Shown here one piece after another: positions 14,929 to 51,924 of a stretch of 64,000 nucleotides of DNA. The stretch is taken from positions 1,473,030-1,537,029 of the forward strand of contig NZ_CP064788.1 in NCBI RefSeq assembly GCF_017094525.1, in the 5' to 3' direction. A program made the translations under genes and the position numbers. The notes under the pieces were generated by a model. That model made no database searches. It was not told where the DNA came from and saw only the letters and a list, made by a program, of their open reading frames with translations. How positions within the stretch are numbered: the stretch's first letter is position 1; each line of letters begins with the position of its first letter. The stretch comes from Halapricum desulfuricans (GTDB lineage: Archaea; Halobacteriota; Halobacteria; Halobacteriales; Haloarculaceae).

Positions 14929-15669
14929 ATGCCCACAATCACAGTCTGGAACGAGTACGTCCACGAGAAAGAGAACGACCGCGCCGCCGAGCTCTACCCC
15001 GACGGTATCCACACTCACATCGCCAACATTCTCGCTGAAGCGGGCCACGACACCCACACTGCCACCCTACAGGAACCCGACCACGGCCTCACAGAAGACG
15101 TACTCGAGGACACTGACGTCCTCTACTGGTGGGGGCACATCGCACACGACGAAGTAGCGGATCAGGTCGCCGAGCGCGTCGCCCGGCACGTCCGCGAGGG
15201 GATGGGACTGGTCGTATTGCACTCGGGCCATCACAGCAAACCCTTCCGGAAACTCCTGGGAATGGACGCCGACCTGACCTGGCGCGAGGTCGGAGAGCGC
15301 GAGCGCCTGCACGTGATCGACCCCGGCCACCCCATCGCAAGCGGGCTGCCCGAGAGCTTCGTCGTGCCCGAGGCCGAGATGTACGGCGAACCCTTCACCG
15401 TCCCCGAACCCGACCGGCTGGTGTTCGTCTCGTGGTTCGAGGGCGGGGAAGTCTTCCGCTCGGGGTGTTGCTATCGCCGCGGCAAGGGCCGGGTTTTCTA
15501 CTTTCGGCCCGGCCACGAGACCTATCCCGTCTACCATCAGTCGGAGGTCCAGACAGTCCTGCGAAACGCCGCCGAGTGGGCCGCGCCCGTCGAGGGCAGT
15601 CCCTACCCGACCGAACCCCGCAACGTGCCCGACCCCGCCGAAGACATCGACGGGTACGAACCGCGATAG
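14929..15669 (+). CDS. ThuA-domain protein (trehalose utilisation family)
   Basis: This 246-residue protein belongs to the ThuA-like class-I glutamine-amidotransferase fold, with [27 protein letters not shown] and [10 protein letters not shown] as recognisable segments. ThuA proteins are linked to uptake or oxidation of disaccharides such as trehalose, but their chemistry is unsettled. The gene is 104 bases before the second 4-alpha-glucanotransferase, so a link to sugar use is plausible. Confidence 0.85.
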
Positions 15670-15740
15670 TGACGTGACTCGTTGCCGATCGCCGAGCCAT
15701 CTCCTTCAGCGGTGGGTCCCGACGCCGGGCGAACCGCCCA

Positions 15741-15747
15741 CATATAA
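15741..15747 (+). promoter_or_regulatory. TATA box of malQ copy 2
   Basis: CATATAA lies 27-33 bases before ATG 15774, so the transcript probably begins at or next to the start codon (leaderless). Confidence 0.65.
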
Positions 15748-15773
15748 GACCCTTCCACCGGAACCGTTCGGGT

Positions 15774-17261
15774 ATGTCCTTCGAGAGACAGAGCGGCGTC
15801 TTTCTTCACGTGTCGTCGCTGTCCGGGCCTGACGGCATCGGGACGCTCGGAGAGCCGGCTCACGAGTTCGTCGAGTACCTCGAGACGGCCGAACAGTCCC
15901 TCTGGCAGACCTGCCCGATCGGTCCAACCGATCCGAGACAGGGCAACTCCCCGTACTCGTCGTTCTCCGCGCGTGCGGGCAATCCCCTGTTCATCGAACT
16001 CGACGCGCTCGTCGAGGAAGGCTGGCTCGACGACCCTGACCGCCCCGATTTCGACGACCGCGAGGTCGAGTACGAACGGGTGATGGCGTTCAAGCGGGAG
16101 GCGCTTCGGGACGCCTTCGAGGGCTTTTCCGACGTCGCCGACCCGGACGACTTGACGGCCTTCGAGTCGTTCTGTGAGGAGAACGCCGAGTGGCTCGACG
16201 ACTACGCGCTCTTCCGGGCGCTCGATGATCACTTCGACGCCGATACCTGGCTGGACTGGCCCGACGGGGCGAAGTTCCGCGATCCCGACGCGCTCGAGCG
16301 GTACCGGGAGCAACTCGCTCGGGACGTTCGGTTCCGACAGTTCCTCCAGTGGGTCTTCGATCGACAGTGGGCGGAGCTACGCGAGCACGCCCACGAACAC
16401 GGGATCGAACTCGTCGGAGACATGGCGATCTACGTCGGTACCAACAGTGCCGACGTCTGGGCCAACCCGGAGATATTCAAACTCGACGAGGAGCGAGAAC
16501 CGATTTACGTCTCTGGGGTCCCGCCGGACGACTTCTCGGACACGGGACAGCTCTGGGGCACGCCAGTCTACGACTGGGAGACGCTCGCCGACCGCGAGTA
16601 CGACTGGTGGATACAGCGTTTCGCCGGATTACTCGACCGCTTCGACGTCTTCAGGATAGACCACTTCAAGGGGTTCGAGAGTTACTATCAGGTGCCAGCC
16701 GAGGAAGACACGGCGATGAACGGCGAGTGGGTCTCAGGTCCGGGTCGGGACTTCTTCGAGGCCGTCCGTGAGAGACTCGGCGACCTCCCGATCGTCGTCG
16801 AGGACCTGGGCGAGGTCACCGACGCGACGCGGGCGCTCCGGGACGCGTTCGGGTTCCCCGGGATGCGAGTGGCGGGGATGGCTGACTGGTGTGACGACGA
16901 TCACACGCATCACCCGGCGAACTACGACGACGACTCGGTCGCCTACGCTTCCACGCACGACACGAGCACGACGCCCGGGTGGTACGAGGACCTCTCCGAG
17001 ACGCAGAAACAGTGTCTCCACTCCGTGGTCGATCACGAAGGCGACGAGGTGCACTGGGATATCATCGAAGCCGTCTGGGCGTCCCCGGCGATCATCACGC
17101 TCGCACAGTTCCAGGACTTCCTCGGCCTGGGGGACGAACATCGGTTCAACCTTCCCGGCACGGCGACGGGGAACTGGAAGTGGCGAATGCGTCGGTCAGA
17201 GCTCGATCCGGCTGTTGCTGAGCGGCTCGCCGACGTCACCCGACGGACTGACCGACGCTGA
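15774..17261 (+). CDS. malQ: 4-alpha-glucanotransferase (GH77), copy 2
   Basis: This 495-residue enzyme is complete and shares the whole layout of the copy at 885-2378. Catalytic acids are in RIDHFKGFESYY, VVEDLGEV and STHDTSTT. It has its own TATA box and appears leaderless. Downstream in the same direction is a GH13 enzyme, so this is a second glucan-processing block. The two copies differ at many positions, pointing to an old duplication or separate acquisition rather than a recent tandem copy. Confidence 0.95.
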   Translation: MSFERQSGVFLHVSSLSGPDGIGTLGEPAHEFVEYLETAEQSLWQTCPIGPTDPRQGNSPYSSFSARAGNPLFIELDALVEEGWLDDPDRPDFDDREVEYERVMAFKREALRDAFEGFSDVADPDDLTAFESFCEENAEWLDDYALFRALDDHFDADTWLDWPDGAKFRDPDALERYREQLARDVRFRQFLQWVFDRQWAELREHAHEHGIELVGDMAIYVGTNSADVWANPEIFKLDEEREPIYVSGVPPDDFSDTGQLWGTPVYDWETLADREYDWWIQRFAGLLDRFDVFRIDHFKGFESYYQVPAEEDTAMNGEWVSGPGRDFFEAVRERLGDLPIVVEDLGEVTDATRALRDAFGFPGMRVAGMADWCDDDHTHHPANYDDDSVAYASTHDTSTTPGWYEDLSETQKQCLHSVVDHEGDEVHWDIIEAVWASPAIITLAQFQDFLGLGDEHRFNLPGTATGNWKWRMRRSELDPAVAERLADVTRRTDRR

Positions 17262-49758: not shown

Positions 49759-50634
49759 ATGAGCACCGCAGATTCCGAGGACCACGGAGGACACCACCTC
49801 CCCGCAGTCGAGGACTGGCCCCGCGGATTCGGCGAGGCGAGCTGGTGGCCCTTCGTCACGGCCGTCGGCGGAGCGTTGGTCTACGTCGGCGTAGCGCTTG
49901 TCATCTGGAGCAGCAGTTCGAACCCGACGCTGACGACGGTCGGCGGGACGGCGGTCACGCTACGGGTCGCCGCCGGTGGCGTCCTCTCGACGAGCGTCCT
50001 GCTGTTGCTCGGCGGGATCTACGGCTGGCTATATCACGCGTTCGTGGCTACCTATTGGGAACACGGTACCGAACAGCGAAGCAGCAGTTCGCTCCGGTTC
50101 GGGATGGTGCTGTTTCTCGGCTCGGAGATCGCGACGTTCGGCGCCGGTTTCGTCTACTACTTCTTCATCCGGTCCGGCGCCTGGAGCACGGACGCGTTCC
50201 CCGAGTTGCTCGGCAGCCTGGTGTTGATCAACACTGCCATCCTGCTGGCGAGTAGCGTGACACTGCACTTCGCCCACGTCGCGCTACGGAACGGCAACCG
50301 CCGGCGGTACGTCCGCCTGCTCGGGCTCACGCTCCTGCTCGGACTGATCTTCATCGGCGGCCAGGCTTACGAGTACTATGAGTTCATCGTTCACAAGGGC
50401 TTCACGGTTCAGGGCGGGGCCTTCAACAGCGCGTTCTACGGGCTGACTGGACTCCACGGGGCGCACGTCTCGCTGGGCGCGCTCCTGCTCGGGATCGTCT
50501 TCGTCCGTAGCCTCATGGGCCAATACACCCAGGACCGCCACACGTCCGTCAGCACCGTCTCGATGTACTGGCACTTCGTCGACCTGGTGTGGGTCTTCCT
50601 CGTCGTCTCGCTGTACGTCGGTGCTGAACTCTGA
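49759..50634 (+). CDS. Heme-copper oxidase subunit III
   Basis: The 291-residue membrane protein has seven helices with the family residues GSEIATFGAGFVYYFF (conserved Glu) and GLHGAHVSLG (conserved His). It stabilises the terminal oxidase and supports oxygen and proton entry. Subunits I and II are not in the window, so it stands alone here. A TATA-like TTTTAATA is about 28 bases upstream of ATG 49759. Confidence 0.92.
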   Translation: MSTADSEDHGGHHLPAVEDWPRGFGEASWWPFVTAVGGALVYVGVALVIWSSSSNPTLTTVGGTAVTLRVAAGGVLSTSVLLLLGGIYGWLYHAFVATYWEHGTEQRSSSSLRFGMVLFLGSEIATFGAGFVYYFFIRSGAWSTDAFPELLGSLVLINTAILLASSVTLHFAHVALRNGNRRRYVRLLGLTLLLGLIFIGGQAYEYYEFIVHKGFTVQGGAFNSAFYGLTGLHGAHVSLGALLLGIVFVRSLMGQYTQDRHTSVSTVSMYWHFVDLVWVFLVVSLYVGAEL

Positions 50635-50684
50635 TCAGTCGAGGTCCGGGTTATCTGAAGGGTATCTCTGATCGGTACCAAAAC

Positions 50685-50693
50685 TATTTTATA
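50685..50693 (+). promoter_or_regulatory. TATA box of the candidate ncRNA
   Basis: CCAAAACTATTTTATAG gives a BRE-like AAAAC followed by TATTTTATA at 50685-50693. It predicts a transcript start near 50715-50719, just where the first strong helix begins. No coding frame of quality follows. Confidence 0.6.
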
Positions 50694-50718
50694 GGATTCT
50701 GGTGTGGTATCGAGGCGA

Positions 50719-50873
50719 GGGATAGTGTCGCACGCGGGGGAAAGGATCACCGACCGCACCGGGGGAGACAGGCCGTCGACCCACCTGGGGGGGCTGTTTG
50801 GGGGTGGCACCGACGGAAAACGACGATCCGCGGTCGGCTGTGGCCCCGCGCCAGCTTCCTGGCGCACTATCCC
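50719..50873 (+). ncRNA. Candidate structured non-coding RNA, about 155 nt
   Basis: The ends pair perfectly: GGGATAGTG (50719-50727) with CACTATCCC (50865-50873). Inside are CGCGGGG (50733-50739) / CCCCGCG (50844-50850), an 8-bp helix CCGACCGC (50751-50758) / GCGGTCGG (50830-50837), CCGTCG (50773-50778) / CGACGG (50811-50816), and a terminal hairpin CGCCAG (50849-50854) / CTGGCG (50859-50864) that competes with one helix. GGATC (50744-50748) / GATCC (50825-50829) would form a pseudoknot. It matches none of RNase P, SRP or tRNA as I know them. Confidence 0.6.
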
Positions 50874-50933
50874 GGTTCTCTCTCGACTGATTCATCGTGA
50901 GCCTCGCACGGGGTGTTATCGCGACGATGATAC

Positions 50934-51017
50934 GATATAGGGCAGTCGATACGGTACCGATTTGCCGGTGTGACTGCACGATGGCGTGCGGTCAACCCGG
51001 AACGGACAGACACTATC
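50934..51017. repeat. Nested palindromic repeat, diverged copy (84 bp)
   Basis: The centre CGATTTGCCGG through GGAACGGAC is homologous to 40124-40172. The inner hairpin TGACTGCAC (50971-50979) / GTGCGGTCA (50986-50994) keeps all nine pairs, two of them changed. Outer arms are degraded to GATA and TATC. Its right end overlaps the scpA stop codon. Confidence 0.65.
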
Positions 51018-51924
51018 AGTCCGCTGCGGCATCGCTGATCCCCGAGTTCTCGATCCAGAGATCGCCGAAGAGGTCGTCCTGCGAGAGCAGGACTTCGCCC
51101 CGATGGGACAGAAAGAGCAGTCCCAGAAACGTCTCGACGCGGGAGCCCCCGACGTCGCTGATCTCGCGATAGAGCACCTCCGACCGACCGGCCTCGTACT
51201 GCTCGGCGAGCGCCTGTTCGACGCTGTCGATTATTTCGTCGATGTTTTCGGCGTGGGCCGTTCCCGTCACTTCGGCCGCCGTCGGCTCCTCGTCCATGCG
51301 GAGGTCGTCGGCGCTCCGGTAGTCGAGTTGCTGGGTCCCGCGCTGGTAGCCCTGCGGCGAGTCGCTGGTGTCGTACTCGCGGGACTCTTTCCACCAAGAG
51401 TCGCGTTCGGCGTCGCGCAGTTCGTGGACGAGTTCGTCCAGCGTCCGGGGCATCCCGCGAGCGCGCTTGCGTTCGAGCCGGCGGTCGATCTCCGCGTCGA
51501 GCTGGTCGAAGGGATCGACGCCCAGTTCCTCCTCGCCCAGCGGCTCGACCCAGGGTTCGTCGTCGTCCGGTTCCTCTCGGCCGTCGTCGCCGTCCAGCAG
51601 GGCGTCGCTTTTCATGCGCACGAGGACGCTCGCGTAGAACAGCGCCCGGCCCGAGGTCCGCAGGTCGGCCGACTCGAGCGCGTCGAGGAACTTGTCGGTC
51701 ACCCGGACGACGTCGATGTCCCAGGGATCGATCTCGCCGTCCTCGGCCAGCTGGACCAGCACCTCGACCGGTTCGATGTCGCTATCAGCGGCGTCCGGGC
51801 CGGCTGGCCCGCCGCTGTCCGGTTCGCCACCTGCGACGACGCTCGTGCCGCCGTCGGGCAGACTCCGCTCGTCGTCCCGTGTCTCGTGGCCCGCGATGTC
51901 CAGTGGAATCTCCTCGCTAGTCAT
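51016..51924 (-). CDS. scpA: Segregation and condensation protein A (kleisin)
   Basis: The 302-residue ScpA bridges Smc heads. The N-terminal part has VEVLVQLAEDGEIDPWDIDV, typical of kleisins, the middle is acidic and variable, and the C-terminal winged helix ends with TFLGLLFLSHRGEVLLSQDD. It follows smc in the same direction, separated by 207 bases of repetitive hairpins. No scpB is visible. Confidence 0.93.
   Translation of the reverse strand: MTSEEIPLDIAGHETRDDERSLPDGGTSVVAGGEPDSGGPAGPDAADSDIEPVEVLVQLAEDGEIDPWDIDVVRVTDKFLDALESADLRTSGRALFYASVLVRMKSDALLDGDDGREEPDDDEPWVEPLGEEELGVDPFDQLDAEIDRRLERKRARGMPRTLDELVHELRDAERDSWWKESREYDTSDSPQGYQRGTQQLDYRSADDLRMDEEPTAAEVTGTAHAENIDEIIDSVEQALAEQYEAGRSEVLYREISDVGGSRVETFLGLLFLSHRGEVLLSQDDLFGDLWIENSGISDAAAD

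Follow-up and report, generated by a model that had tools for sequence, protein, structure and literature searches.

Downstream of the gene for cytochrome oxidase subunit III (coxIII) of Halapricum desulfuricans lies an intergenic stretch that raises a question: does it encode an RNA of its own, and with what would such an RNA interact? The stretch was analyzed within a window of 64,000 nt (G000:C1:1473030-1537029) of the 2.89-Mb host genome (G000), in which Pfam assignments place coxIII (PF00510) before it and a convergent scpA gene (PF02616) after it. An earlier note had proposed that a structured RNA of about 155 nt, with a promoter of its own, begins at GGGATAGTG. This proposal is well supported, and the element, hereafter RNA A, is conserved in five Halapricum genomes (Table 1).

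Table 1. Features of RNA A (window coordinates) and of its candidate partner, RNA B.
Feature	Position	Strand	Observation
TATA box CTATTTTATA of the promoter of RNA A	50684..50693	+	TATTTTATA invariant (n = 5 genomes); ungapped spacer to GGGATAGTG
RNA A, ~155 nt, non-coding	50719..50873	+	Kept in 5 Halapricum genomes; frames shift between blocks; covariance-model matches in the genus only
Closing helix P1 (9 bp), 5' strand GGGATAGTG	50719..50727	+	Invariant in 5/5 genomes
Closing helix P1, 3' strand CACTATCCC	50865..50873	+	Kept in 4 genomes; CACTACTCCC in G003, still pairs with one bulged base
Helix P2, 5' strand GCGGGG	50734..50739	+	Partner 50844-50849; GGGG and CCCC invariant
Helix P2, 3' strand CCCCGC	50844..50849	+	Partner 50734-50739
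Block 1, GGGGAAAGGATC	50737..50748	+	Invariant in 5 genomes; complement of GATCCTTTCCCC of RNA B, an orthologous RNA locus in the same 5
Helix P3 (8 bp), 5' strand CCGACCGC	50750..50757	+	Partner 50830-50837; forms in 4/5 genomes, not in G003
Helix P3, 3' strand GCGGTCGG	50830..50837	+	Partner 50750-50757
Block 2, TTGGGGGTGGCACC	50798..50811	+	Invariant in 5 genomes; TGGCACC (50805-50811) complementary to GGTGCCA of RNA B
3' hairpin P5, CGCCAG-CTTC-CTGGCG	50849..50864 (arms 50849-50854/50859-50864)	+	100% of cells paired; two one-sided changes to G-U
Pyrimidine stretch TTCTCTCTC, 3' of the final helix	50876..50884	+	Pyrimidine-rich in 5/5, not identical
RNA B (unannotated, C-rich, small-RNA-like)	G000:C1:~253963-254043 (L085:~1470-1550)		Orthologues L089, L098, L092, L088; TATA box and CsmR-type motif
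GATCCTTT	RNA B		Counterpart of block 1 of RNA A

RNA A is found downstream of coxIII, on the same strand, in five of the six Halapricum genomes (G000, G001, G002, G003, and G005), and was not detected in the sixth, G004, which is 78% complete. In the five-genome alignment, the TATA box, the ungapped spacer to GGGATAGTGTC, and the segments GGGGAAAGGATC, TTGGGGGTGGCACC, and CTGGCGCACTA are invariant, while most of the sequence upstream of the TATA box and downstream of the pyrimidine stretch is not. The length of the RNA varies between 131 and 155 nt. The predicted start, placed by a BRE/TATA element exactly where the 9-mer begins, holds with constant spacing in all five genomes, and the perfect complement said to close the domain is present at its end. 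The pyrimidine stretch after the last helix is a possible terminator. Since RNA A lies between convergent genes, it is not an mRNA leader, and since an ApbC/Mrp-like gene (named from its sequence) replaces scpA in G003, its linkage is to coxIII only.

It is highly improbable that the element belongs to the coxIII 3' untranslated region or encodes a small protein instead of being an independent RNA. It does always follow coxIII on the same strand, and it overlaps with a 78-aa frame of the window. Nevertheless, the TATA box stands at a constant spacing from the conserved 5' end, as expected of an intergenic small RNA gene with its own promoter, and in the other genera inspected, coxIII is followed by other genes or unrelated sequence, with no RNA A. 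The absence of a good coding frame, as the earlier note had it, is borne out: overlapping open reading frames are listed, yet they are not conserved between genomes. From genome to genome, the spacing of the conserved blocks varies by numbers of nucleotides that are not multiples of three, even for G000 and the 92%-identical G001, which is a strong argument against a protein frame running through the element.

The distribution of RNA A is narrow. A DNA search of 97 relatives found it only in Halapricum (G001, 92%; G005, 75%; G002, 73%; G003, 97% over 31 bp), the other matches belonging to a separate dispersed repeat. A covariance model matched 5 of 146 genomes of the family, all Halapricum, and a search of 391 genomes of the class gave nothing convincing outside the genus, although the filters of such large searches may drop weak matches. 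Among its 17 weak matches (E 0.09-0.92), the five inspected lacked block 1, and the best one lay inside a reading frame. Pattern searches of plasmid, viral, and genome-contig records returned one true named match, in Halapricum hydrolyticum; the remaining ones were short, came from unrelated bacterial records, and were judged to be chance. Rfam 15 yielded no match for the window at the gathering score; in 50600-51050, even a limit of E = 10 gave none. RNA A is not the archaeal signal recognition particle RNA, as the RF01857 locus of the genome sits elsewhere (G000:C1:154832-155144). Beside the element, window positions 50954-51000 and their flanks hold one copy of a dispersed palindromic repeat whose core, ACCGGTGTGACCGCACG..CGTGCGGTCAACCCGG, is often flanked by the outer arms CATAGTGGTTGCTGTA/TACAGCAACCACTATCA; it is MITE- or terminator-like and occurs in several copies per genome in Halapricum and its relatives.

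Taken together, RNA A is almost certainly a conserved non-coding RNA, and a new one. The support comes from comparison, that is, from a promoter, spacing, ends, and blocks that are kept while the flanks diverge, and not from single-sequence folding. The predicted folding energy of RNA A is -76.8 kcal/mol, against -70.5 ± 4.6 for shuffled sequences, 19/200 of which fold as stably, so that the argument from helices of one sequence, originally described as unlikely by chance, does not hold. The minus strand of the locus folds about equally well relative to its own shuffles. The internal helices P2, P3, and P5 are present in the sequence, but they do not make up a fixed internal fold: P1, P5, and a short helix of GGGG with CCCC recur in nearly all five genomes, whereas the 8-bp P3 is missing from G003, where the GATCC that pairs with GGATC lies at a different place. 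A pseudoknot between GGATC (50744-50748) and GATCC (50825-50829) had also been suggested; both motifs are present, but G005 and G002 have not kept GATCC, so this pseudoknot is not supported, and GGATC is more probably kept for pairing with another RNA. The comparison with related genomes, proposed as a check, showed the element and its TATA-to-start spacer to be kept, but few compensatory changes: covariation among the five sequences is weak, with one pair changed on both sides and a level reached by 102/500 shuffles. P1 has a pair probability of 0.84-1.0 in four genomes, and AAAGGATC is mostly unpaired within RNA A in four (0.73-0.85). Block 1 is mostly paired in G003, and the TGGCACC of block 2 is mostly paired within RNA A (unpaired 0.14-0.30).

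A candidate partner emerges when the complement of GGGGAAAGGATC is searched in Halapricum. Besides RNA A itself, one orthologous intergenic site is found in all five genomes that carry RNA A; in two of them, G000 and G003, no further site of this complement exists on either strand. This locus, RNA B, is encoded about 1.27 Mb from RNA A in G000. It is flanked by a divergent serB-like gene for a HAD phosphatase and by a small zinc-ribbon gene, a zinc-finger gene that may correspond to HVO_2753. The locus comprises a 37-nt segment, AGTGGCACCGCCCCACCGGTGCCATGATCCTTTCCCC, invariant in 5/5 genomes, after which come a C-rich tail and CACCTACTTTCG; a TATA-like box precedes the likely start by about 25 nt. 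No RNA B locus matched Rfam at the gathering score. The complement of block 2 (GGTGCCACCCCC) has no shared second site. Several related sequences were observed along the way. Additional copies of the 12-mer occur at other places in G002, and one more is common to G001 and G005. Two unlinked intergenic copies in G002 (L091:1501-1580 and L099:1431-1512) are 90% alike over 82 bp and have GGGGAAAGGATC...GAGGGTGGCACC arranged like the blocks of RNA A, with a TATA-like AATTATAC on the opposite strand. An extra B-like C-rich hairpin occurs in G002 (L083, G002:C45:53219), and two tandem ones, about 190 bp apart, occur in G004 (L180, G004:C232:~15600-15860).

Within RNA B, (T)GATCCTTTCCCC is immediately preceded by GGTGCCA, so one contiguous stretch can pair, antiparallel, with both internal blocks of RNA A. 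The longest perfect complementarity between the two RNAs is 14, 13, 13, 12, and 15 nt in the five genomes; shuffles of RNA A reached it in 0/200 cases in each genome (0/1000), and shuffles of RNA B in 0, 0, 2, 0, and 0 of 200. On cofolding, block 1 lands on GATCCTTTCCCC in 5/5 genomes. The total interaction energy is not exceptional compared with shuffles, as expected for a G-rich against a C-rich sequence. Both sides of the helix are nearly invariant, the sole change being at one end, where G000 and G003 have a terminal A-U pair and the remaining three genomes a G-U pair; there is, therefore, no compensatory change to prove pairing. In G004, the relative of RNA B lacks TCCTTTC, which, given the 78% completeness of that genome, agrees with the co-occurrence of RNA A and the B segment without proving it. 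RNA A has the specific and evolutionarily kept complementarity to a small RNA that is expected of a sponge, and it is probably the base-pairing partner of this newly recognized C-rich small RNA.

RNA B belongs to a wider family. A pattern consisting of the hairpin GGCRCC-loop-GGTGCC and a C-rich tail matched 63/96 good Haloarculaceae genomes, in 19/22 genera, with a reversed control near zero in most genomes; as some matches resemble coding sequence (e.g., L162), 63/96 is an upper estimate for this pattern. A TATCA-N4-TGATAA-like motif precedes the hairpin by 59-61 nt in all 28 B loci examined (L162 was excluded); in 26 of them it has no more than 2 mismatches of 11, versus about 1.5% of shuffled upstream sequences. 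In Haloferax volcanii, the consensus TATCA(N4)TGATA was derived from ChIP-seq of CsmR, which controls motility and cell shape (PMC13286277). By this consensus, found upstream of the TATA box of RNA B, CsmR is a probable regulator of RNA B. Upstream of RNA A, the best match to the motif has 4 mismatches of 11. Elsewhere in Halapricum, TATCAATGGCGATAAT (or a close variant) lies about 65 bp before the start of a cheY-like response-regulator gene in 6/6 genomes (L194, L189, L190, L192, L193, L191), and TATCA-N5-GATAAT precedes a third gene (~430-450 aa, ..TGEPVGLQYFDYD..) in three genomes (L187, L188, L197). For the B of genus g2, the search for a partner RNA gave a 12-mer second site in 1/2 genomes, without an A-like context.

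We infer that both RNAs are transcribed and pair in the cell, and consider it fairly likely that the Halapricum-specific RNA A is a partner of the CsmR-motif small RNA B, a sponge being its most probable role. P1 and the 3' hairpin would hold RNA A as a platform exposing two G-rich blocks, which would pair with the invariant contiguous segment GGUGCCAU-GAUCCUUUCCCC of RNA B. Block 1 would provide the grip through a helix of 13-14 bp, to which block 2 may add once the hairpin of RNA B has opened. Titration of RNA B would withhold its C-rich tail and, thereby, free its targets. Because the promoter of RNA A lacks a CsmR-type motif, we propose that RNA A would set a threshold on RNA B. The reverse direction, with RNA B controlling RNA A, fits the sequence nearly as well.

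Complementarity is symmetric and gives no direction, which leaves room for a less likely reading, in which the effector is RNA A (regulating in trans, or binding a protein) and RNA B is its regulator or one of several targets. The larger size and richer structure of RNA A, with its very stable closing helix, would suit such a role, but one contiguous segment of RNA B accounts for both invariant internal blocks of RNA A, and RNA A occurs only where RNA B has that segment, whereas RNA B is widespread without RNA A. It is more doubtful still that the structured RNA A serves an unrelated role, its match to RNA B being a coincidence or a shared short motif. G-rich sequence pairs easily with C-rich sequence, the total energy is unexceptional, and the additional 12-mer copies in G002, and the one shared by G001 and G005, would be in keeping with this. 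Chance, however, does not readily yield a perfect 12-15-nt match that shuffles of RNA A never reached, nor a site that is orthologous in five genomes and sits inside a conserved small-RNA-like element.

Among known systems, the sponge of RoxS in Bacillus subtilis (PMC8216469) is, like RNA A, a separate RNA complementary to a small regulatory RNA that it is proposed to titrate, and both cargoes are C-rich as judged by sequence. Unlike bacterial sponges, RNA A is archaeal, much more structured, and restricted to one genus, and its titrating role is here a proposal from sequence. A limited search of the open literature found no archaeal RNA sponge. Haloferax sRNA132, involved in the phosphate response (PMC6560208), is likened to RNA A by description: it is an intergenic haloarchaeal small RNA with its own promoter, confined to one genus, and with conserved neighbors, but it is reported to target the 3' untranslated region of an mRNA. 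The CsmR regulon of Haloferax volcanii likewise combines the consensus, found upstream of the TATA boxes of the B loci, with a regulatory RNA in the network, hvo_1211s, a 420-nt antisense RNA to cirA (PMC13286277). In contrast, RNA B is C-rich and, as far as seen, not antisense to a neighbor, and the promoter of RNA A lacks the motif.

In Firmicutes, small RNAs with a hairpin and C-rich runs pair with G-rich ribosome-binding sites. RNA B shares this architecture, a hairpin followed by C-rich runs, with IsrR (PMC9410917) and RoxS, a likeness for which no homology is claimed. Tentatively, the two Halapricum RNAs may form an archaeal circuit, in which a family-wide C-rich small RNA under CsmR control is countered, in one genus, by a dedicated structured sponge that would have evolved to fit a short genus-specific insertion in that small RNA. 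Few archaeal small RNAs have known partners; here, the sequence alone names both candidate partners and their pairing site, as well as a probable regulator of RNA B. With the C-rich family present in most of the Haloarculaceae genera searched, its CsmR-type promoter would offer a testable link between a small RNA and archaeal motility.
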